32,375 nt of DNA from positions 1-32,375 of the forward strand of contig NZ_BOOA01000088.1 of assembly GCF_016862995.1 (NCBI RefSeq), given 5' to 3'. Made by a program: the position numbers and the translations under genes. The stretch comes from Acrocarpospora phusangensis. Its GTDB lineage: Bacteria; Actinomycetota; Actinomycetes; Streptosporangiales; Streptosporangiaceae. A model generated the notes under the pieces. That model searched no databases. It was given only the letters and a program-made list of their open reading frames with translations, and was not told the DNA's origin. Positions 799-30,928 of the stretch are shown in pieces. Positions within the stretch are counted from its first letter, which is position 1. Each line of letters opens with the position of its first letter.

Positions 799-3057
799 GT
801 GGATGTTGTCACTCTCTGGGCCCGGCGGATCGCGGAGCAGGTCGTTCCCGGTGAGGTGGCGGGCGCGGAGGCCGTGGGGGCCGCTTACGCGGCGGGCGGG
901 AAACGGCGTCGGGAGCTGTTCGCGGGCGGCGGCGCCGGGGAGCCGGGCGGATTCGGCGGCGGGCTCGGTCCTGGGGATCTGGCGGTCATTCTGGACGCGT
1001 TGCGGTTCGCGTCCGACCATCTGCTGGAGCTGGTGGCGGAGAATCCGCTCGCGAATCTGATGGTGCTGCTGGCCATGCGCCAGGGGATGCGACGGCGGGC
1101 GGGGACGACGGCGCAAGCCGTACGGGAAGAGGGGTTCGAGCGGGTTGTCGGAGGGTTGGAGGAGCGGCTGCGGGCGCAGGGCGTGGCCGCGGACCGGGCC
1201 GAGGAGCTGACGTATCAGACGTTGAAGGTGGTATTCCAGCAGGATCGGGACACGGAGGAGATCCGGGCGTTCCTGCGAGCCCTGTCCGCGAGCCCGGCGG
1301 CGGAGCCGGTATCCGCCGACAGGCTGCTGGCGCGGCAGGGCGAGGGCCCGGGATGGATGTTGCCGCCCTGGTTGTGGCTCTACTTCCTCGGGGTGAGCGC
1401 GCCGGGCGTGCCGATGCTGCTGGGCGGCGTGCAGGAGGACCTCGACGGGATATCCAGTCTGGTCGGATATCTGGCGGCAGGAGCGGAACAGGCGGCGGCG
1501 ACCCTCCTGACCGGAGCCGGGCTCCTTGAGCTCTTTCCCGCGCTGCTCCTGCTTTCGGGCATCTTGGGGGTGGCCTTCCCGGACGCTCGAGGTCGCTGGG
1601 CCGAGCGACGCCACCGGCTGCGGCCGAGCGACGACCCCACCATCCTGGCCATGACCGCGCTGGTACGGCGGCACGCCCCCGGCATCGACCTCCGCCTGGG
1701 CGACCACCACGACCGCGTGGCCCGGGTCTACCCGGTGGGCTGGCGTACCGCCAGGATCGCGGTGTATCCGCCGCTGCTGCGCATGTGGCACGCCGACCGC
1801 GAGGCCGCCACGGCGGTGCTGCTGCACGAGGTCGCCCACCTCCGCCAGGGAGACCACCTGATCGTGGGCTTGGCCAGCCCGTTCGCCTGGCTCGTACGCG
1901 TCTGGGGTGTGCTGCTCACGGCGCTCGTCCTCATCCCGGTCGTGCTTTATGTCACCGCCGACGGCCCCGAAGCTCAGGTGGTCGTGCTCACCCTGCTGCA
2001 CGACACCATGTCGGTCCCGATCGCGCTGATCCTGCCCGTGGCCGGCCTCTGGGTCGCCGAACTCAGCGCCGACCGGTTCGCGCTCCAGGAGGCGGGGCCG
2101 GCGGCGTTCCAGCGTGCCCTCGGACCCGCCGGACGGCGCGGCATCCGGGCCGTGTTCACCGCCCTCACCCATCCGCCGCGCGCCCTGCGCCTCAGGGCGG
2201 CCACCGCGTGGCCGGGCGGCACCGCCCTGTCCGCCGCCATCTGGCCGGTCGCCGTGGTGGCGCGGTTCGCGCTGATCGCCCTCTTCCAGCTGGTCGCCCA
2301 CCAGCTGAACGGCTACTCCTTCGGCGAGGCTCTGTCCATGGTCGGTACGGCGTTCCGTACCGAGTTGTCGGCGGCGCAGGTCGTCCTGATCGAGATCCTG
2401 GTGCTGCTGGTGAACTGGCCGCTGCTGGCGCCGCTGTGGATGCGCATCTGGACGCCGGTCCCGGCCGTACGGCAGCGGTTCGCGCCCTATCTGGTGTCCG
2501 CGCTGGTGCCGGCGGTCCTCGCGGCGGGCAGTCTGACGGCGGGGGTCACGACTCCTCCGCAGCCCTCGCCGCCGGGCCTGACACAGCCGACGGAATCAGC
2601 GGAGCCGACGCCGGAGCGGACCGGGATCGTGGACGACCGTCCGTGGGCCGGGCGGCAGCTGCCCGTACAGCTGCGGATCACTCAGGCGCGGCCGTTGCAG
2701 CAGGTGGGCGGCCCGCCCGAGTGGCTGGGGCCGGCCGTGAGCTGGCTCGGACCCGGGACCTGGCGGGCCGAGGCCGACGGGCGTCTCACCTTCGAGAACC
2801 CCGCGGGGCGGACCGACATCCGCGCCGGGGAGGGCCTCTGGTTCCGCGCCGGGGACGTGGTCACCTTCTGGCTGGCCGTGGAGCTCAACGATGGGGGTAG
2901 GCCGGTCGCCACCGAGATCAGCGGCGAGATCGACCTGGCCACGGCCACCATGACCGCGCTCTGGATGCCGAAGCTCACCTCCAGCGATCCGCGGGGGCTG
3001 CTGAACCTGCCGTCGTTCCAGATCAGCACCACGGTCAGCGTGGATCAGGCGGTCTGA
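799..3057 (+). CDS. Membrane-embedded M48-like zinc metalloprotease
   Basis: This 752-residue protein is probably an integral membrane peptidase of the HtpX/Ste24 (M48) type. HEVAH at residues 343-347 gives the two zinc-binding histidines and the catalytic Glu. AELSADRFA near residue 421 fits the ExxAD third-ligand motif of M48. About seven hydrophobic segments surround the catalytic region (residues about 190-600). A Pro/Thr-rich linker (about 605-630) then leads to a beta-rich C-terminal domain, probably outside the membrane. The GTG start at 799 is chosen because GGAGG sits five bases upstream; the same frame is open back to 718, but without a ribosome site. The last 13 bases overlap the 3' end of the convergent cyclase-like gene. 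The substrate is unknown. The family is fairly sure, while a link to the neighbouring CHAT module is only inferred from position. Confidence 0.8.
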   Translation: MDVVTLWARRIAEQVVPGEVAGAEAVGAAYAAGGKRRRELFAGGGAGEPGGFGGGLGPGDLAVILDALRFASDHLLELVAENPLANLMVLLAMRQGMRRRAGTTAQAVREEGFERVVGGLEERLRAQGVAADRAEELTYQTLKVVFQQDRDTEEIRAFLRALSASPAAEPVSADRLLARQGEGPGWMLPPWLWLYFLGVSAPGVPMLLGGVQEDLDGISSLVGYLAAGAEQAAATLLTGAGLLELFPALLLLSGILGVAFPDARGRWAERRHRLRPSDDPTILAMTALVRRHAPGIDLRLGDHHDRVARVYPVGWRTARIAVYPPLLRMWHADREAATAVLLHEVAHLRQGDHLIVGLASPFAWLVRVWGVLLTALVLIPVVLYVTADGPEAQVVVLTLLHDTMSVPIALILPVAGLWVAELSADRFALQEAGPAAFQRALGPAGRRGIRAVFTALTHPPRALRLRAATAWPGGTALSAAIWPVAVVARFALIALFQLVAHQLNGYSFGEALSMVGTAFRTELSAAQVVLIEILVLLVNWPLLAPLWMRIWTPVPAVRQRFAPYLVSALVPAVLAAGSLTAGVTTPPQPSPPGLTQPTESAEPTPERTGIVDDRPWAGRQLPVQLRITQARPLQQVGGPPEWLGPAVSWLGPGTWRAEADGRLTFENPAGRTDIRAGEGLWFRAGDVVTFWLAVELNDGGRPVATEISGEIDLATATMTALWMPKLTSSDPRGLLNLPSFQISTTVSVDQAV

Positions 3058-4262
3058 CCGGGCACGTGGATCCAGCAGTGCTCGGTGAAGCCCTTGTCCG
3101 GGACCGCTGCCGTGATCTTGTCGAAGCGCCAGGCCGGGTCGCCCTCGAAGGCGCTCGTGACCGACTCCTCGTAGATGTCGTCGGAGACGATGACGACGTG
3201 GTAGCCGGAGGCCGTGGCCAGCGCCTCCTTGGCGGCCGCGGAGTCGCGCATGCGGCAGGCGCGGATGATGCTGTTGCCGCCGTACCCGTTGACGCCCAGC
3301 AGGACGACGCCCTCGTCGAGAGCTACCCGCATGCGGACCACCAGCTCGGGCCGTACCGGGCGGTTGGCGGCGGCGAGGCCGCTGGCCAGCTCGCGCAGGA
3401 ACCAGCGGATGACGCGCGGCTCGTCGATGCCGGGCGGCAGCACGACCAGCCGGCCGTCACCCTGTTCCTGCACGTGGCAGCCGCGCATCGGCCGCAGCGC
3501 CGCGGCGAGCGCGCCGTCCAGCACCCGGACCAGCACCTCCTGCAGCCGTAACTGCTCGCCCGGGTCCCGCTTGCTGTACGCCTCGATGTCCACCGCCACA
3601 CACAGCCGCCGGGCGCCGCTCACCACCTCCTGCTCGGACAGCGACGCCGGGTCCCGGGTGGACATGATCGGCGAGTACGTGCCGTCCACCAGGCTCAGCA
3701 CGAACGGCTGCCGTTCCGGGGCGGCCGCCTCGACCTCCATGCCCAGTTCGGGGTCGGCGAGCCGCGCGGTCGCGGTGATCGTTCCCGTCAGGGAGGCGAC
3801 TCCGGGCGGGACCTGCAGGAGCACCCGCGCGGTCCGGCTGCCGTCGCTGAGCCCGCCGTTCGCGCCGTTCGTGCTGTCCGGCCGCAGCCGCCAGCGGAAC
3901 TCCGAGCCGCCGTCGCCGAACGTGGTGAGATTCCCCAACGCGGAAATATCGTCATATCGGGTGGCGGACAGGCGGCGTCCGATGACCTCGCCGCCGTCCA
4001 GGGAGACCTCGAAAACGGCCTCCAGATAGCTCATTCCCGACGCGGGCTCCTCAAGATCGAACGGAAACAGCAGCTGGAGATATGACCACAGATGCGCTCC
4101 CCGCGCCCCCGCCACCTCCGGCGGCAGGTCCTCCGGCGCCACCTCCACCACCGACGGCCGTCCCAGCCGGATCCCGGCCTCCCGGTTGAATCGGGTGCCA
4201 GCCCCCATCAGGGCTTCCTCCGCACCCAGGTCCAACCGAACCAACACGTCGTACCCGCCCAT
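3045..4262 (-). CDS. Beta-rich protein with C-terminal class III nucleotide-cyclase-like domain
   Basis: This 405-residue soluble protein has two parts. Residues 1-about 205 are beta-rich and not recognised. The rest reads as a divergent class III adenylate/guanylate cyclase homology domain. VAVDIEAYS (Asp225) matches the first metal-binding motif, QGDGRL (Asp269) the second, and NSIIR (Asn330, Arg334) the Asn-Arg pair that stabilises the transition state. The Lys that usually contacts the base three residues before GD is Gln here, so substrate or activity may differ. I recall similar domains as common in actinobacterial multi-domain signalling and conflict proteins. The ATG at 4262 has AGGAGG five bases upstream (4268-4273); an upstream in-frame start at 4283 lacks such a site. 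The gene lies 35 bases after the CHAT gene and is probably co-transcribed with it. It overlaps the M48 gene tail by 13 bases. Confidence 0.7.
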   Translation of the reverse strand: MGGYDVLVRLDLGAEEALMGAGTRFNREAGIRLGRPSVVEVAPEDLPPEVAGARGAHLWSYLQLLFPFDLEEPASGMSYLEAVFEVSLDGGEVIGRRLSATRYDDISALGNLTTFGDGGSEFRWRLRPDSTNGANGGLSDGSRTARVLLQVPPGVASLTGTITATARLADPELGMEVEAAAPERQPFVLSLVDGTYSPIMSTRDPASLSEQEVVSGARRLCVAVDIEAYSKRDPGEQLRLQEVLVRVLDGALAAALRPMRGCHVQEQGDGRLVVLPPGIDEPRVIRWFLRELASGLAAANRPVRPELVVRMRVALDEGVVLLGVNGYGGNSIIRACRMRDSAAAKEALATASGYHVVIVSDDIYEESVTSAFEGDPAWRFDKITAAVPDKGFTEHCWIHVPGQTA

Positions 4263-4297
4263 AAGCACCTCCTGGTTCCGCACGCTCGCTCACACGG

Positions 4298-7200
4298 TCA
4301 TCGCGCCAGCCCGAACAGGGTGAACGCCGCCCAGCTCCGCGGGGCCGCCGAACCGGCGATCATCGAGCACTGCGCCTCCCGGAGCGCCTGCGCCGTGCCC
4401 AGCGGGGTGTTCAAATGCGTCTCGTGAAACCGGCGAAGCACCCGCAGACTGTCCCGCTCCACGACCGGCCACAAGGTCATCAGCACCGCCACCGGCCCCG
4501 CACTCAAAAACGCCCGGCTCAGCCCGATGACCCCATCCCCGGTGACCTGCCCTCCGCCCGTCTCACAAGCGGCCAGCACAACCAACGCCACCGGCAGCTC
4601 CATGCCATGGACGACATCCGCCGTCAACTTGCCCGACGCCAACGCCACAAACGACGCCATCGGATCCGACGGCAACGCCTCAGCATGCGTGGCCAGGCAC
4701 AACACCCCCGGCCCCCGCGAAGCCCCAGCCACCAGTGCGTCCTCGGTGGCGTCCGCCCCCGCATGAATCTCCGCCTCCGCGAACAACTCACTCACCACCC
4801 GGAAGCCACCCCGCAGAATCGGCAACGGCCGGTACCCGACCGGCATCGGCTCCGGATCGACAAGCGCACAGATCCGCGTCGGCTTCCCCATCCCGGTACG
4901 GCGTGCCAGCAACGGCGGCAGAATCGACGCCGCCGGCAGAACCGTGGTCGTGTGCCGCTCGACCAGATACCTGCCCTCCGCGTCGATCAACGCGTGCAGC
5001 GGCACGCTCAACAGCTCGTCATGCGGGACCAGGGTGACCGCGATGTCCGGATCCGTGGGCAGTAAGTGAGCGATCGGGTCCCAAAGGATCTCCCCCAACG
5101 CCCGGAGCAGCTCCCTCGTCCGGACATCGTCGACCTTGGTGACGCGGAACCAGTGCTGCAACTCTCCCGCGAGCGCACGCAGGGCCAGATGGTCGACGTG
5201 CTGATCGACAGTGTGGACACGCCCGTCGAGATCGGTGACGAAAATGATGAGCCGGTCACCGAACCGGAAGTACTCGACGATCGGAGACTCGTAGTCCGCC
5301 AACAGGGCTTCCATGCGGGCCGGAGTAAGCGCGGGAGCGGCCTTCCTACCGGTCATCAGATCGGCGAACGCCCGCGCCCGCGCCATCTCCGAAGCAGCCA
5401 GCGCATCAATGGGAGCACCCAGGTCGAGCATCGTCCCCACCAGTTGCCCATGCAGCTCCCGGGCCTCCTCCATCATGAGGATGCGCTCCCAGTCCGACTC
5501 CAGACGGCCGCGCCACCGCTCCACATACCGACCGAGCCGAGCAATGGCATCCGCATTACTCGCCCGCACAAACGTGGCGTTACCCACCGGATCCAGCCGC
5601 CGCAGTTGCTCGTGACAGTGCTCCACCCGAGCCACCGCCCCCACCAGCACAACAGCGACATTCTTAACCAACAGAACAACCGCCGCTTCCTCCGCGCCCA
5701 GCGAAGCCGACCCGGTGAACCTCGAATCAGCGGAGGCCGGTTCGGTGACTTCGGAATGTCCGGGTGTGGGTTGGATCGCGGTGGCGAGGTCGCGCTCCCA
5801 GTGTTGTTCGCGGAGGTCCAGGTCTTCGGGGGAGCCGGCGCTGGCCAGCAATGTCAGGAGGTCGTCGCGGGCGGAGCGAAGCGGGTGGTTGTCGTCGATG
5901 ATGTGCAGGTCGGCGGCTAGTGCTTTGGCTATTTGTTCGTGTAGCCGCGTAGCCAGGCGATCGAGTTCTCCCGCCGCGGAGGAGACTTCTCCGCTGAAGG
6001 CGTCGAGGTCGGGTGGGGTTCGGTCCAAGCCCGACAGGAGCTCGATCGAAGTGTCGAGGTCGGTCGCGGAATCGGCGAGGAGGAGGCTCAGCCGTCCGGA
6101 TGACATGGCCGCCAGTGCTTCCACCATCTGACGGTCGAAGGCCAGTGTGTCTCCGGTATCGCGCAGGAATCGCTCCCAGGCGCCCGTCACCAATTCGCCG
6201 AAACTGATCTCGCGTCGCAGTGCGGTGGCGTCCCGCAGGCCCGCCATCATCGCCGCTAGATCATTTTCTACGAAATTTCGTGATATGCGCTGGTCGAGGA
6301 CTCGCATCCGCGCGAAAACCGAATCCGCGTCCGCCTCGGAGGGCTCCTCGTCACCCGCAGCCCTCCGGAGTTCGTCGTCCCAGTGCGCGATCTTCCTGCG
6401 AAGCTCGTCATTCGGATCATCCTCATTCCCCGAAAGAGTAACCTCCCCCTTAACGGCATCCTCCGCTAGGCCATCCATGCCGACGAGGCCAGCGCTACCG
6501 TGGCCAGGACTGGCGAAGCCAGCCCGCTCCTCACTGCTCACTCCACGGAGACCGGCGCTCTGGCCACCTCTCATGACATGAATGCCGGTCGTCCTGTCGC
6601 ACTCCATCCCGGGAGCGTTGATGCGCTCGTCAGGCGATGGGGGCGCTGAAGCGTGAGCCGTTCCCACGACCGTGGCTGGATGGTTCACATCCATTTCTGG
6701 AAGGCCCGTGAGCGTGGCTGAAGGGCCCGCGGCCGGAGGGTCCGCGACTGTGGCCGGAAGGTCGAGGTGCTCGTCACCCTTCGCCGCGCCAGGTGCCATG
6801 TCGACGCCCCGGCTGTCCTGGAGGCGGACAGCTCGCTCGTTTCCCCCCGCCGTTGTGGCGATATTTCGGCTTATAGGGGAGGAACGATCCAAAAGGGGGG
6901 CGTCGTCGACAGAGGTGGCGGTGATGGTGGCTTCGTAGTGGGTTGGGTGGCCGGTGAGCGTGGTGCCGGAGAGGGTGATCTTGCCTTGTAAGGCTGAACC
7001 GTTCACGGCGAGGTGGGCGGTCCCGGTGTCGGCTTGGACGGGGAGGTCGAAACCGATGCCCATGGGACTGTGGGTGGTCCTCCACCACATGGGGGGAGCG
7101 ATGGGCGCGTGGAGCGGGCCTAGTGTGACGGCGATGCCGGTGCCGTCCACCGTGACGTCGGCGTCTTCGTCCTCGACGACAACCCAGGTCAGACTGCCGG

Positions 7201-7453
7201 GTTCCATCCCAGGCGAGTTCAGCAGAAATTGCGAAGAAAGATCCCATTCGACGCTTATCTCGACGGCCGGGCAAGGCTCCCCGTCGAGCACGGGCTGAGC
7301 CGTCCCCGCAAAACACCACCGTGAGCGAGCCTCTGGCCGTTCCGCCACAATTGTTGATCGTAGAGAGTTCCGCTCATCTACGCCAGGTCCGTCCAGAATG
7401 CTCCACCTTAACGACTGTTCAGCGCTTGAATCGTGGGTACGGCGGTTGTCCAC
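4298..7453 (-). CDS. CHAT-domain (caspase-like) protease with beta-rich N-terminus
   Basis: The 1051-residue protein ends in a CHAT domain, the caspase/separase-related cysteine protease fold (about residues 760-1051). LATHAEA carries the catalytic His (His923) and LAACETGGG the catalytic Cys (Cys963), 40 residues apart, followed by the typical DGVIGLSRAFL and LMTLWPV segments. The first 160 residues or so are beta-rich and not recognised. Residues about 170-340 look low-complexity, and about 350-750 are helical and may form TPR-like repeats. Proteases of this kind are often activated by a partner or ligand. The start is uncertain: the frame opens with GTG at 7453, only 16 bases from the divergent regulator start. 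A GTG at 7348 would leave about 120 bases for promoters, but neither has a good ribosome site. The cyclase-like gene follows 35 bases downstream. Confidence 0.8.
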   Translation of the reverse strand: MDNRRTHDSSAEQSLRWSILDGPGVDERNSLRSTIVAERPEARSRWCFAGTAQPVLDGEPCPAVEISVEWDLSSQFLLNSPGMEPGSLTWVVVEDEDADVTVDGTGIAVTLGPLHAPIAPPMWWRTTHSPMGIGFDLPVQADTGTAHLAVNGSALQGKITLSGTTLTGHPTHYEATITATSVDDAPLLDRSSPISRNIATTAGGNERAVRLQDSRGVDMAPGAAKGDEHLDLPATVADPPAAGPSATLTGLPEMDVNHPATVVGTAHASAPPSPDERINAPGMECDRTTGIHVMRGGQSAGLRGVSSEERAGFASPGHGSAGLVGMDGLAEDAVKGEVTLSGNEDDPNDELRRKIAHWDDELRRAAGDEEPSEADADSVFARMRVLDQRISRNFVENDLAAMMAGLRDATALRREISFGELVTGAWERFLRDTGDTLAFDRQMVEALAAMSSGRLSLLLADSATDLDTSIELLSGLDRTPPDLDAFSGEVSSAAGELDRLATRLHEQIAKALAADLHIIDDNHPLRSARDDLLTLLASAGSPEDLDLREQHWERDLATAIQPTPGHSEVTEPASADSRFTGSASLGAEEAAVVLLVKNVAVVLVGAVARVEHCHEQLRRLDPVGNATFVRASNADAIARLGRYVERWRGRLESDWERILMMEEARELHGQLVGTMLDLGAPIDALAASEMARARAFADLMTGRKAAPALTPARMEALLADYESPIVEYFRFGDRLIIFVTDLDGRVHTVDQHVDHLALRALAGELQHWFRVTKVDDVRTRELLRALGEILWDPIAHLLPTDPDIAVTLVPHDELLSVPLHALIDAEGRYLVERHTTTVLPAASILPPLLARRTGMGKPTRICALVDPEPMPVGYRPLPILRGGFRVVSELFAEAEIHAGADATEDALVAGASRGPGVLCLATHAEALPSDPMASFVALASGKLTADVVHGMELPVALVVLAACETGGGQVTGDGVIGLSRAFLSAGPVAVLMTLWPVVERDSLRVLRRFHETHLNTPLGTAQALREAQCSMIAGSAAPRSWAAFTLFGLAR

Positions 7454-7469
7454 GGAGGCGAGGCGACGC

Positions 7470-10400
7470 GTGCCAAACGAACAAGCTGGTCCTGGAGCCG
7501 TGGGGAAAGGTGGTTTTGTCGGGCGAGAGCGGGAACTCGCCGTCCTTCAGCAGGCCTGGGAGAACGTCCAGCACAACGAGACGCGAATCATCAGCATTGA
7601 GGGCGACCCAGGCATCGGCAAAACCGCATTAGTACGCCGTTTCCTCCGCGAATGCCACCCAGAATCACTCATCTGGGCAAGCGGCGACGAAGCAGAAACC
7701 AACCTTCCCTGGGGCGTACTCACACAAATCGCTCATGTTCTCCCGATTCCCGGCGTCGTATCTCCGGACGGGCCGTGGGAGACCCGGACCGATCCCGTCT
7801 TCGTCGGCCAAGCGCTGGCCCGCCAACTCCAGGACTGCAAGGACCTGATCCTCGTCCTCGACGACGCCCAATGGGCCGACCGCCTCTCCCTGGCCACCCT
7901 CCGACTGGCCGCCCGCCGCCTCCTGGCCGACCCCGTCCTCCTCATCGTGATCCACCAGACCCCCGGCCCTCTCGACCGGATCATGCACGACAACCCCGCC
8001 CCCACCCTCGACGACGGCTGGCGCCGCCTGTTCGACTCCGACCGCGGCCTCCGCCTCCCCCTCTCCGGCCTGACCGCCCCCGACCTGGTACGACTCGCCG
8101 TCACCCAGGGCCACCACGGCCTCTCCCCCGGCGGCGCCGCCCGCCTCCACACCCACACCTCCGGCCATCCCCTCCACGCCCGCCACCTCCTGGACGAACT
8201 CCCCCTTCACGCCATCAACTACGGCCACGGCCCCCTCCCCGCCCCCCAAACCCTCACCACCACCCTCCGCACCCACCTCTCCCGCTGCTCCCCCACCACC
8301 CGCACCCTCCTCTCCGCCGCCGCCATCCTCGGCCCCAAATCCACCCTCACAACCCTCCGCACCCTCATGCACCCAAACGCCACTGAAGACCACAGCAAGG
8401 AGATCCCGACTAACCCCCCAAACCGAGAAGCCGAAGCACCCCACCCCCACTCCCCATCCCCCAACGCCCCCGCCCAACCTGGTGGAGAAGCCCCCACCAA
8501 CCCGCCACCCCACAACTCCGACATCCCCGCCCAACCTGGTGGAGCGGCCCAGACCAACCCCTCGCCCCACGACGCCGATACCGCTGACCAACCCGGTGGA
8601 AAGGCCCACGCGATCGCGATCCCCGGCAACGCCGGCACGGTCGCCCAGCCCAGCAGAGAAGCCCACTCCAACCCCCCATCCCCCAACGCCGACGCTGTCG
8701 CCCAAGCCGGGAGGGAAGCCCACGTCAACCCCTCTTCTCACTACACGGACGCCCTTGACCGATCCGGTGGAAACGCCCACACCGACCCCGGCAACGCCGA
8801 CTATGCCGCCCAGCCCAGCAGAGAAACCCACGCCAACCCCCCATCCCCCAACGCCGGCACCCCCGCCCAGCCCGGTGGAAGGGCCCACGCCAACCCCTCT
8901 TCTCACTACACGGACGCCCTTGACCGATCCGACGGAAAGGCCCACGCCGACCCCGGCAACGCCGGCACTGTCGCCCAGGCCGGGAGGGAGGCCCACGCCA
9001 ATCCATCGCCCCATGCTGCCGACGCCCCCGCCCAACCCGGTGGAGAGGCCTGGAGCAGCCCGCCACCCCACAACGCCGATGGTTTTGGCCAATCCGGTGG
9101 GGAACTGACCGGCTTCCCACGTCGCGAGGCTGACACCTTCACGCGAGACAACCGGGAAGAGAGATGGCTGACCCCATCAACCCCGGGCGCGGACGAGGCG
9201 TGGGTGTTTGGGAGGGCTTTGGAGGAGGCGGTGGGGATGCGGTTGTTGGAGGAGGTGCCGGGGGCGGCGGGGTTGGAGGTGGGGTTTCCGGGGGCGATGG
9301 TGCGGGGGCTGGTCTATCACGAGGTGGAGTTGGGGCTGCGGAGGGAGTTGCATCGGCGGGCGGCGAGGAGGGGTGGGGCGGGGGCGTTGTGGCATCGGAT
9401 CGCGGGGGCGGATGGGCCGGATGAAGGGCTGGCGGGGGATGTGGAGCGGGCGGCGCGGGAGCGGTTGGCGCAGGGGTGGTTGCCGCTGGCGGCGGTTTTG
9501 TGGCGGCATGCGGTGGAGTTGACGCCCGTGGGGGCGGCGCGCGGGCCTCGGTTGCTGGGGGCGGTGGAGGCGTTGCTTGTCGCCGGAGATATCGCGACAA
9601 GTCTCGAATATCAGGGGGAGGTCGCTGCGCTCGCCGTGGGTGGGGTTGAGGCCCCGGGAGCAGGGGGGATTGGGCGGTGGGCGGGTTATGTGTTCGGGTA
9701 TCAGTTGCTGTTGACCGGGCAGGTCGGGGAGGCGACGGTCGCGTTGCGGCGGGCCTTGGAGGCGGAGGAGCGTCATCCGCTGGAGCCCGCCGATCTGGCG
9801 GCCAGGATCGCGTCGCAGCTGACGATCATCGGGGTGCTCACGGAGTCGTACCCGCAGATGATCGATGATGCGAGGACGGCTGTGGCGGGGGCGAAGGAGT
9901 CGTGGGTGGCGGCTTTCGCGTGGTTCGCGAGGTCGATCGCGCTGGCGGTGGTCGGGCGGAGCGCGGAGGCGCTGGAGGCGCTGGCGGGGGTGGACGCGCC
10001 GGGCGCGGCGTCGGGGCTGGACGGCATGGTGGCCCGGGGCATGATCCGGTTGTGGACCGACGACCCGCAGGGCGCGCGGAGCGATCTCGCGTCGGCGGTG
10101 GACCGGGCCACCCGGGGGGAACCGCTGCGGATCGGGCAGGCGCTGGGGTTCCTGGGTGAGGCGGAGTACCGGCTGGGCGCGCTCGGCGAGGCCGTACTCC
10201 ATGCGGAACTCGCGGTGGGGGATGCGGAGGACAACAGCCGCGTGTGGGACTACGCCCTGTTGCATGGAATCGCCTGTTATCCGCTGGCCGCGCAGGGGGA
10301 GTGGGCGCGAGCGGAGGCGCATGCCGAGCAGGCCAGTCGGTGGGCGCGTGAGGTGGCCACGCCGGCGAACGTGCTGTACGCGGCGACCGCCCAGGCCATG

Positions 10401-11156
10401 CTCGCCCAGGCCAGAGACGACCCGACCTGGCTCCTCGCGGCGGCCGAGGACGCGGAGACGATCTATCCGACGCAGGAGCCGGGCACCCATCTGCTCGGAC
10501 CGCTCCGCGCGGAAGCGCTGTGCCGCCTGGGACGCCTCCCCGAAGCCCTCCAGGCCCTGCGGGAGTTCCAGGCCAGGCTCGGCCCGTCCAGCCGCAGATC
10601 CGTCGGCATGGGTGTGGCCCGGGTGAAAGCCCAGATCGCCACCGCTTCCGGACGGCACCAGGACGCGCTGCTCGAATGCCGTACCGCCCTGCAGATCGCC
10701 CGGGAGACCGGCCTGCGCCTGGAGGCGGCGAGGATCGAGCTGCTCACCGGAAAGTGCCAGCACACGATGGGCCGGCGCGCGGCGGCAGAACGCTCCCTCC
10801 GTGCCGCGTTGGACCAGTTCACCGCGATGGGCGCGACCGCGTACATGACGCAGACCCTGGACGCGGCCCACCAGGCCGGGATGGTCCTGGACACGCCTCC
10901 GGAGGCGCTGGGCGCCCTCACCGCCGCCGAGCGGGCGGTGGTCACGCTGGCCACGGCCGGGAACTCCAACCGGGAGATCGCCGAACGCCTGGTCCTCAGC
11001 GTGAAGACCATCGAGTTCCATCTGACCAACGTGTTCAGGAAGCTCGACATCGGCACCCGCGACGAACTCCGCAGGCTGCTGCCCGAGCCAGGGTGGCCGC
11101 GCGAAATCCCTGGGGTGCGACCCGGAAGTCCGCGGGGAGGCCGCGACCTACGCTGA
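7470..11156 (+). CDS. LAL-family LuxR transcriptional regulator with internal Pro/Gly-rich repeat
   Basis: This 1228-residue regulator belongs to the large ATP-binding LuxR (LAL, MalT-like) STAND family. FVGRERE opens the ATPase, the Walker A GDPGIGKT is at residues 45-52, and the Walker B segment ending LDD is at about 126-132. The TPR-like helical region spans about 580-1140. A C-terminal LuxR helix-turn-helix (about 1150-1205, LTAAERAVVTLATAGNSNREIAERL then SVKTIEFHLTNVFRKL) binds DNA. A 57-bp tandem repeat (residues about 342-546) is inserted between ATPase and TPR parts, which is not usual for the family. GTG 7470 is preferred because GGAGGCGAGG lies just upstream and it leaves space before the domain; ATG 7398 would overlap the CHAT gene. 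The divergent position suggests it controls the CHAT/cyclase unit, but this is inference. Confidence 0.9.
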   Translation: MPNEQAGPGAVGKGGFVGRERELAVLQQAWENVQHNETRIISIEGDPGIGKTALVRRFLRECHPESLIWASGDEAETNLPWGVLTQIAHVLPIPGVVSPDGPWETRTDPVFVGQALARQLQDCKDLILVLDDAQWADRLSLATLRLAARRLLADPVLLIVIHQTPGPLDRIMHDNPAPTLDDGWRRLFDSDRGLRLPLSGLTAPDLVRLAVTQGHHGLSPGGAARLHTHTSGHPLHARHLLDELPLHAINYGHGPLPAPQTLTTTLRTHLSRCSPTTRTLLSAAAILGPKSTLTTLRTLMHPNATEDHSKEIPTNPPNREAEAPHPHSPSPNAPAQPGGEAPTNPPPHNSDIPAQPGGAAQTNPSPHDADTADQPGGKAHAIAIPGNAGTVAQPSREAHSNPPSPNADAVAQAGREAHVNPSSHYTDALDRSGGNAHTDPGNADYAAQPSRETHANPPSPNAGTPAQPGGRAHANPSSHYTDALDRSDGKAHADPGNAGTVAQAGREAHANPSPHAADAPAQPGGEAWSSPPPHNADGFGQSGGELTGFPRREADTFTRDNREERWLTPSTPGADEAWVFGRALEEAVGMRLLEEVPGAAGLEVGFPGAMVRGLVYHEVELGLRRELHRRAARRGGAGALWHRIAGADGPDEGLAGDVERAARERLAQGWLPLAAVLWRHAVELTPVGAARGPRLLGAVEALLVAGDIATSLEYQGEVAALAVGGVEAPGAGGIGRWAGYVFGYQLLLTGQVGEATVALRRALEAEERHPLEPADLAARIASQLTIIGVLTESYPQMIDDARTAVAGAKESWVAAFAWFARSIALAVVGRSAEALEALAGVDAPGAASGLDGMVARGMIRLWTDDPQGARSDLASAVDRATRGEPLRIGQALGFLGEAEYRLGALGEAVLHAELAVGDAEDNSRVWDYALLHGIACYPLAAQGEWARAEAHAEQASRWAREVATPANVLYAATAQAMLAQARDDPTWLLAAAEDAETIYPTQEPGTHLLGPLRAEALCRLGRLPEALQALREFQARLGPSSRRSVGMGVARVKAQIATASGRHQDALLECRTALQIARETGLRLEAARIELLTGKCQHTMGRRAAAERSLRAALDQFTAMGATAYMTQTLDAAHQAGMVLDTPPEALGALTAAERAVVTLATAGNSNREIAERLVLSVKTIEFHLTNVFRKLDIGTRDELRRLLPEPGWPREIPGVRPGSPRGGRDLR
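8493..9107 (+). repeat. Eleven-copy 57-bp in-frame tandem repeat inside the LAL regulator
   Basis: The stretch divides into eleven consecutive units: nine of 57 bp (19 codons) and two of 51 bp (17 codons). A degenerate start of a further unit lies just before it. A typical unit reads HANPSPHAADAPAQPGGEA; the most constant positions are the NP pair near the start, the Q-P/A-G pair and the final EA/KA. A 41-base block at 8726-8766 is identical to 8891-8931, which is 165 bp (three units) away. This suggests recent duplication of a three-unit block. All length changes are multiples of three, so the host frame is kept. Confidence 0.9.
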
Positions 11157-30211: not shown

Positions 30212-30928
30212 TCAGATGCTCGAACTGAAGGCCGCTACCGCGTATCCCGGCGTCACTCTGTTGATCACATTGTTCACCATCTGCACGGTTATCTTGTCCA
30301 ACGGAACATCGGTGAGTAGGGGGATCGAGGACGTGACGGAATTGTCGAGGGGCCCTTCTCCGTCGACTTCCGCGAGTGCTTGGGCCGGGTTCGCCTGGAG
30401 GCCCGGGTTCGCCTGTAGATAATCGACCTGGGCGGGGGTCAGTTCGCGGATGTAGGGGAAGCCATCGATCTTGATGAGCAGGAGGTTTCCGATGAGGATG
30501 AACGCGTTGGCGCTTTCCTGGACCGCTGCCATGAGCGCGGCAACAGCTTCCGCCTGAACCTTGCTGGCCTGGGCCGCAGGCTCGTCGTACCAGCGGATTT
30601 CGGCACCGGCTTTGAGTTTGTCGGCCGACTGTTCCAGTCGCTCATCGGTGAAGTATCTCCGGACGCGGACGACGAACGCCTGCCAGATCGAGCCGCGCAC
30701 CTGGGGTCCGGCTTCGGCGATTTCCAGGCCGAACGCCTCGGCGGCCTGAGCCAGCGCGGCGAGAACCGGGGCGTGGTCACGTTCGTCACTGAGATAGACA
30801 ATCGCCGCCGAGAGCGTGCCCGGATCCCTGGAAACCTTCCTGAGAATGCGGCGCATCGCCTCGTCGGCGGCCGGATCAGGCGTCGGGGCGACGAGAGACG
30901 GGTTGTTAGCCGACGAGGGAGAGGTCAC
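30212..30928 (-). CDS. Actinobacterial protein of unknown function (YLSDE...LIKID type)
   Basis: The 238-residue protein has a disordered start (first 20 residues), then AAIVYLSDERDHAPVLAALAQ, a central helical part, and LLLIKIDGFPYIRELTPAQVDYLQANPGL. From memory this arrangement (YLSDE near the start, an Ile-Lys-Ile-Asp segment and Leu-Thr-Pro-Ala-Gln) occurs in a widespread actinobacterial family without known function, often of similar length. No catalytic motif, signal peptide or membrane helix is evident. GTG 30928 follows AGGAG by five bases. No operon partner is apparent; the neighbour downstream is another unknown protein. Confidence 0.75.
   Translation of the reverse strand: MTSPSSANNPSLVAPTPDPAADEAMRRILRKVSRDPGTLSAAIVYLSDERDHAPVLAALAQAAEAFGLEIAEAGPQVRGSIWQAFVVRVRRYFTDERLEQSADKLKAGAEIRWYDEPAAQASKVQAEAVAALMAAVQESANAFILIGNLLLIKIDGFPYIRELTPAQVDYLQANPGLQANPAQALAEVDGEGPLDNSVTSSIPLLTDVPLDKITVQMVNNVINRVTPGYAVAAFSSSI

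Follow-up and report, generated by a model that had tools for sequence, protein, structure and literature searches.

Both caspase-like proteases and cyclic nucleotides are found in bacterial immune systems. Pycsar systems pair a PycC-type cyclase with a TIR or membrane effector that carries a cyclic mononucleotide (cNMP)-binding domain, and the CHAT proteases of type III CRISPR systems (Csx29, SAVED-CHAT) provide a precedent for CHAT proteins in phage defence. For actinobacteria, Kaur et al. (2020; PMC7159879) describe conflict systems whose signal and effector domains include caspases and cNMP cyclases, link a CRP-like cNMP-recognising factor to some related peptide-processing systems and report that several vWA components carry cNMP cyclase domains that are inactive; the word CHAT is absent from their main text. 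Here we describe a gene set from Acrocarpospora phusangensis (family Streptosporangiaceae) in which a CHAT protease is encoded next to a cyclase-like protein and an M48-type membrane metalloprotease. The set lies on contig 88 of a 9.1-Mb genome, a stretch of 32,375 nucleotides that we refer to as the window.

Four long frames are present in this part of the window, and a first-pass annotation of the DNA had grouped them as one module. They encode the M48-type metalloprotease, which has an extra domain at its C-terminus (799..3057, + strand), the cyclase protein (3045..4262 or 4283, − strand), the CHAT protease (4298..7348, − strand) and a LAL/LuxR-type STAND regulator (7470..11156, + strand). 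The four do adjoin one another, with recognisable domains in M48, CHAT and LAL. M48, CHAT and the cyclase protein, whose new N-terminal domain we name NDOM, are a real set that is conserved beyond synteny; LAL is a neighbour outside this core. The M48 start is taken as 799, the frame also being open from 718 and 787. The M48 stop (3057) and the cyclase stop (3045) overlap by 13 bases as had been noted, but tail to tail on opposite strands, so that the two genes are convergent and do not form a single transcript. The cyclase and CHAT genes, described earlier as coupled, share a strand and are separated by 14–35 bp, depending on whether the cyclase frame is read from its opening at 4283 or from the start common to its relatives at 4262; the pair is operon-like. 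The CHAT frame opens at 7453, and a GTG start at 7348 is the more likely one because relatives (L051, L052 and L058) have a GTG at the equivalent place. With this start and a LAL start at about 7470, judged from where the gene is called to begin in L031, CHAT and LAL diverge across some 120 bp, which agrees with the claim of a divergent STAND-type regulator close to the CHAT start.

The set recurs in other genomes. Eight M48 loci were found by M48 profile search of genome contigs (two peptide patterns), and all eight hold M48, CHAT and cyclase together: two in Acrocarpospora, three in Planotetraspora and one each in Microtetraspora, Microbispora and Sphaerisporangium. Among 200 genomes of the family searched at E 1e-20, 16 have the M48 family; M48 of the window type adjoins CHAT and cyclase in 10/10 genomes, whereas the other six genomes carry a remoter M48 (some 40% identical in the cases measured) and no CHAT was found near it (0/6), although for two of these six the contig is shorter than 7 kb, one of the two being without a gene call. 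The proposed module thus stands for M48, cyclase and CHAT and falls away for LAL, which accompanies them in three Acrocarpospora genomes only. The neighbours of the distant M48 type (L079, L080, L082 and L086) are small, probably secreted proteins in place of CHAT, and the N-terminal M48 piece of genome G213 (L086) also has the gene of a small, probably secreted protein beside it.

The set occurs in two layouts. In Acrocarpospora and Sphaerisporangium M48 is convergent with the cyclase–CHAT pair, whereas in Planotetraspora, Microtetraspora and Microbispora it diverges from an operon of Crp, a degenerate cyclase, CHAT and NDOM-cyclase, the last gene appearing split over two frames in Microtetraspora; the M48 association has therefore outlived a rearrangement. 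A promoter of M48 common to both layouts was sought by eye and discarded, just the short motif CGTTCC being shared. CGTTCC and, towards Crp, a TTTATAGC patch are shared by most loci of the second layout, and the window at 740–780, upstream of M48, has a CGTTCCAA patch and a GATAAT-like box that are similar in three Acrocarpospora genomes (window, L051 and L052). In Sphaerisporangium corydalis (L058/L081) M48 is broken, with an internal stretch missing and the N-terminal part apparently on another contig. The window M48 itself matches PF01435 at E 4.7e-7 (30.2 bits, cut-off 20.3), and four aligned proteins all keep its HEVAH motif and the Glu and Asp of ELSAD; by the Pfam match, HExxH and the distal Glu the protein is identified as an M48 peptidase. 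The M48 profile has no PDB relative at E 0.1.

The CHAT peptidase domain (4310..5113) matches PF12770 at E 4.2e-50 with 171 bits against a Pfam cut-off of 24. In alignments with Csx29 chains, H923 and C963 of the 1051-residue frame fall on a His and a Cys that we take to be the catalytic residues, and the pair is invariant in 9/9 aligned proteins; by its domain and this His/Cys pair the protein is identified as a CHAT protease. Its N-terminal 165 residues (6854..7348; alignment A8) are 67, 57 and 46% identical to those of Acrocarpospora and Sphaerisporangium proteins, with weaker alignments to L121 (35%) and L122 (26%), and have no PDB relative at a useful E value. The profile of the whole protein (A4) gave no PDB match at E 0.001, though the single sequence matched Csx29 chains. 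Two genomes are rich in CHAT matches, G000 with 13 and G002 with 20, the other 22 genomes of that search having 1–9.

The cyclase protein matched no Pfam family at E values up to 1, and 0/26 members of its family match any Pfam cyclase model, so that the family escapes the present Pfam models. A profile built from 26 diverse cyclase domains (A5) was searched against PDB sequences and returned nine matches below E 0.02, all of them class III nucleotidyl cyclases, with the next match at E 0.44. They comprise entries of Ma1120 (best 5d0g, E 1.6e-5), 3mr7 (E 2.8e-5), a soluble guanylyl cyclase and natriuretic-peptide receptor. The label 'cyclase-like' given in the first pass is borne out, and on these alignments we read the protein as NDOM (3675..4262; alignments A6 and A7) fused to a class III nucleotidyl cyclase domain (3060..3608, residues 226–408 of a 412-residue frame). 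It is 86 and 70% identical to the proteins of two other Acrocarpospora genomes (G002 and G004), and within its own genome matches only itself at E values up to 1.

Active-site positions, assigned from the alignments of A5 with PDB chains, are mixed in character. The metal aspartates (D232 and D276) and the catalytic arginine (R344) are intact in 16/16 CHAT-linked cyclases. The position of the transition-state Asn is Ile or Val in all 16; the first base-selecting position is Gln in 13/16, Gly in 2/16 and Ala in 1/16, and the second is Gly throughout, so that the window protein has Gln/Gly in place of the adenylyl Lys/Asp pair. These replacements count against a role of the protein in making a messenger. 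They agree with a different proposal, namely that the domain makes no messenger and binds a nucleotide as the allosteric sensor subunit of a nucleotide-sensing CHAT protease. Selection for binding alone need not preserve the metal aspartates and the arginine, however, and Ma1120 remains an active adenylyl cyclase despite Ala at the Asn position, its preference for ATP being determined by Lys101/Asp157, while the guanylyl cyclase Cya2 carries Glu/Gly at the base-selecting positions (PMC4215837). Because the aspartates and arginine are kept while the Asn and the Lys/Asp pair are missing, and given these two precedents, cyclase activity of the window protein is plausible and its substrate cannot be named.

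The operons of relatives bear on the same question. Crp and a degenerate cyclase adjoin the core in 11/16 genomes that have it and were not seen in four (three Acrocarpospora and Sphaerisporangium); in the sixteenth, G482 of a second family (f19), the contig end cuts the locus and the case is undecided. The core also stands without M48: the stretch fetched from G132 encodes NDOM-cyclase and CHAT along with Crp and the degenerate cyclase. In G163 and G101 NDOM and the cyclase are separate genes, NDOM being a gene of 206 residues (L121 and L122), and CHAT, Crp and degenerate cyclase accompany them, and in two f19 genomes (G317 and G432) cyclase, NDOM, CHAT, degenerate cyclase and Crp lie on mixed strands. 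The degenerate paralogues lack the first metal aspartate in 11/11 cases (a gap in six) and keep the second aspartate and the arginine in 2/11 each. The relatives' Crp carries a helix–turn–helix (HTH) DNA-binding domain, as judged from a Pfam scan of one, and at 21 other cyclase loci, chosen as best matches with longer DNA and not drawn at random, a Crp-type gene lies within the fetched stretch at 12 and is fused to the cyclase at one (13/21). The degenerate paralogues in the same operons would suit the sensor proposal, as would the window itself, where no Crp stands beside the set, and the inactive cyclase domains of vWA components reported by Kaur et al. (PMC7159879); the Crp-type domain near or within the cyclase protein at 13/21 loci argues the other way, and together with the intact metal residues leads us to hold a pure sensor as doubtful. 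The first pass had put forward, as a hypothesis, a nucleotide product that could switch CHAT; Crp in 11 relatives makes a nucleotide messenger plausible but points first to a transcriptional receiver. No consistent palindromic Crp site was found in the M48–Crp gap. One protein of 502 residues (L124:8935-10443) unites a Crp-type domain, a cyclase domain and a LuxR-type HTH, the last recognised by BLAST to the end of LAL.

NDOM is the candidate tie between the cyclase and CHAT. It was found in 19/297 genomes and 9/68 genera of the family, in 8/394 genomes of the class (three of family f1 and five of f19) and, with profile A7, in the window alone among 396 genomes of the phylum; within the window's genus the set is present in 3/5 genomes searched. 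A CHAT domain above the Pfam cut-off lies within 6 kb at 21 of 25 NDOM loci in 24 genomes, where about 0.7% would be expected at random points (122 CHAT matches in some 197 Mb of the 24 genomes, 12-kb span), although the loci share common ancestry and are not independent. Two of the other loci have a CHAT fragment at the contig end, recognised by our own profile (G482), or a CHAT match below the cut-off (G416). A CHAT signal was seen in 1/14 control genomes. The CHAT neighbours of NDOM vary, with a TPR-CHAT protein in L161 and a CHAT protein near a TIR gene in L158, and PNP genes adjoin NDOM in L160 and L162. NDOM has no PDB relative at a useful E value by profile search, and homology between NDOM and the N-terminal domain of CHAT was considered and dropped, none being detected (hhalign probability 0.1 on a per cent scale). 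These figures, and the presence of M48, CHAT and cyclase together at every M48 locus of this type, refute an accidental grouping for the three proteins; as an account of the locus, accident is so improbable that it may be put aside, and it fits LAL alone, whose linkage is seen within one genus.

The position of LAL deserves separate treatment. The protein has AAA_16 (E 4.5e-18) and GerE (E 1.1e-12) domains and is divergent from CHAT in 3/3 Acrocarpospora loci. The check on gene order proposed in the first pass thus succeeds for CHAT, cyclase and M48, which recur together in relatives, and fails for LAL, which, among the genes called in 21 stretches from 16 genomes with the core (some genomes being represented twice), was found in the three Acrocarpospora genomes only. 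We rejected LAL as a core part for this reason. It may nonetheless have replaced Crp as the local regulator, in which case all four genes would be one functional unit with LAL acting on the divergent CHAT promoter: the three Acrocarpospora loci with LAL all lack an adjoining Crp and degenerate cyclase, and the CHAT–LAL intergenic region (7349..7469) appears similar by eye in the three genomes. Sphaerisporangium, however, has no Crp in the fetched DNA and yet no LAL there, and the genes further right of LAL, encoding a probably secreted protein, ThuA and a GFO/IDH oxidoreductase, are conserved in Acrocarpospora as well, so that the placement of LAL could be plain genus synteny. We consider the four-gene unit improbable. 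The left flank varies, with the end part of hisG (34–648) left of M48 in the window, others including a SIR2_2 gene in L031 and different genes in L032. LAL contains an in-frame tandem array with a 165-bp unit in 3.4 copies (8485–9044; window 8467–9044), and the LAL proteins of the two other Acrocarpospora genomes give no alignment over about residues 323–607. Elsewhere in the window, a 238-residue protein encoded at 30212–30928 (− strand), close to tRNA-Val, has no Pfam match at E 0.01.

We favour the view that the locus is a conflict or cell-death module with a cyclic nucleotide as the signal and CHAT, with M48, as the output, a proposal that we judge equally apt to prove right or wrong. The company of the cyclase family in other genomes suggests it. 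In L047 (4709-7825) a cyclase domain at the N-terminus is fused to NACHT (E 1.5e-22), with LRR below the cut-off, giving an NLR-like architecture; in L042 a cyclase domain adjoins an NB-ARC/TPR protein, and in L034 a dynamin-like protein is encoded about 4 kb from the cyclase. A second coupling of this kind occurs in L165 and L166, where the gene of a different cyclase protein shares 4 bases with the end of a CHAT-like gene (recognised by our own profile at E 2e-7 and 1e-7). Dynamin-like GTPase genes were also noticed near the cyclase–CHAT set at L118:14257-16830 and L157:4694-7279 (both Dynamin_N) and, by likeness of the start only, at L156:3522-6074. The TIR, PNP and TPR-CHAT genes next to NDOM, the patchy occurrence of the set, its recurrence in relatives and the intact catalytic residues speak for this proposal as well.

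Besides the altered cyclase residues already mentioned, several observations weigh against a conflict module driven by a messenger. The ten proteins near or in cyclase family loci that were submitted to a Pfam scan had been picked by hand; three are the proteins of L047, L042 and L034 just described, while four gave matches below the cut-off only (two nSTAND3, one DNA_alkylation and one TPR) and three (L035, L037 and L044) none at E 0.01. No defence model of PADLOC fits the four window proteins; the only matches were to LAL, where CARF3 models cover its HTH with a best E of 9.5e-8 and another match stands at E 0.049. A tblastn search of plasmids with the NDOM and CHAT of L157 found no copy (limit 1e-30 for CHAT), and no close relative of the window cyclase was found in viral contigs, a phage collection lying outside that search. 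Neither Crp nor a degenerate cyclase adjoins the set in the window, at two NDOM-cyclase loci (G205 and G196) no CHAT lies within 6 kb, and it is from gene linkage that we infer an adaptor role for NDOM between cyclase and CHAT.

M48/HtpX-type proteases are commonly stress proteases, and the set could instead belong to a cyclic-nucleotide/Crp regulon through which mycelial actinobacteria manage house-keeping or development (stress, sporulation), with CHAT and M48 in protein quality control. The lack of plasmid and viral copies in the searches made would suit such a regulon, as would the retention of the set in three Acrocarpospora genomes with an equal right flank. The patchy distribution of NDOM, the two layouts of the M48-bearing set and the presence of NACHT, TIR, PNP and dynamin genes in the vicinity of its parts' relatives are harder to reconcile with house-keeping, and we regard the regulon as rather unlikely.

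Under the conflict-module proposal, the window would carry a pared-down version of a signal-and-protease module of actinobacteria, whose core would be the CHAT caspase-like protease and the class III cyclase tied together by the CHAT-associated NDOM; relatives would add a Crp-type receptor and a degenerate cyclase to this core, and part of the Streptosporangiaceae M48. A stress or infection cue may be sensed via the CHAT and NDOM proteins or at the membrane, whereupon the cyclase would make a cyclic mononucleotide. In relatives Crp would read the nucleotide and alter expression, with the degenerate paralogue as a brake or partner, while CHAT would be the output, cleaving a cell protein, and M48 would act at the membrane. 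Since the window has neither of the two adjoining genes, a distant Crp, LAL or direct contact would have to substitute; four Crp-like genes lie elsewhere in its genome, and the closest of them shares 43% identity with the Planotetraspora Crp. More tentatively, the set may be a cyclic-mononucleotide immune pathway in which the Gln/Gly class III cyclase makes an unusual nucleotide that licenses CHAT via NDOM, with the degenerate cyclase as brake and M48 at the membrane; a nucleotide-licensed CHAT pathway of this kind would be the protease counterpart of Pycsar. The small cyclase–CHAT set would permit a direct test of the control of a bacterial relative of caspases by a cyclic mononucleotide, and NDOM offers a domain family without a Pfam match that marks CHAT operons.

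Compared with described proteins, the window M48 shares the HExxH motif and the M48 match with HtpX-like peptidases but reaches 13 bits against their cut-off of 341 and has a long N-terminal part and the extra C-terminal domain. The CHAT domain resembles that of Csx29 in its matching His and Cys, yet scores 36.4 bits against a cut-off of 300. Of the parts that mark CBASS or type III CRISPR protease systems (CD-NTase, Cas10, SAVED, CARF or other Cas proteins), none gave a Pfam match in 11 window proteins or a PADLOC match in the four, the CARF3 matches of LAL covering just its HTH and so not supporting a CARF receptor. The class III cyclase of Mycobacterium avium, Ma1120 (PDB 5d0g and 4wp8), is the best profile match to the cyclase family; both keep the Arg and lack the Asn, while the window has Gln and Gly where Ma1120 has Lys101/Asp157 for ATP (PMC4215837).

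With Pycsar the set shares its class III-type cyclase and, as far as relatives are concerned, a cyclic-nucleotide-binding protein: the cyclic-nucleotide-binding part of the L054 Crp is matched by the models for PycTIR (E 2e-17), for the TIR effector and for PycC (E 2e-6). In contrast to Pycsar, the window cyclase has no PycC match at E 0.1 (1/26 family members matches, at E 0.0033), the receptor of relatives is a Crp with a DNA-binding domain and not a TIR or membrane effector, and CHAT is added. Pfam scans found no Pycsar-type effector (cNMP-binding domain with a TIR or membrane part) among the four window proteins and no cyclic-nucleotide-binding domain in the CHAT protein.

In the literature covered, which included PMC7159879, PMC8195603 and PMC4215837 and left subscription papers and preprints outside, this gene set is not described; the cyclase, caspase and Crp theme of actinobacterial conflict systems is known, and a description of the present arrangement was not found. 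The VMAP/EACC1 systems likewise combine caspase-superfamily peptidases with cNMP cyclases and, in some related ones, a CRP-like factor, according to Kaur et al. (PMC7159879). They seem to differ in that MoxR and vWA do not appear in Pfam scans of 11 window proteins, VMAP and EACC1 being without a dedicated profile search, and in that here the cyclase and CHAT come with NDOM and relatives add Crp, a degenerate cyclase and M48, as seen without a systematic scan of neighbours. The company kept by the cyclase family is of the kind that Kaur et al. describe for the conflict systems of actinobacteria (PMC7159879).

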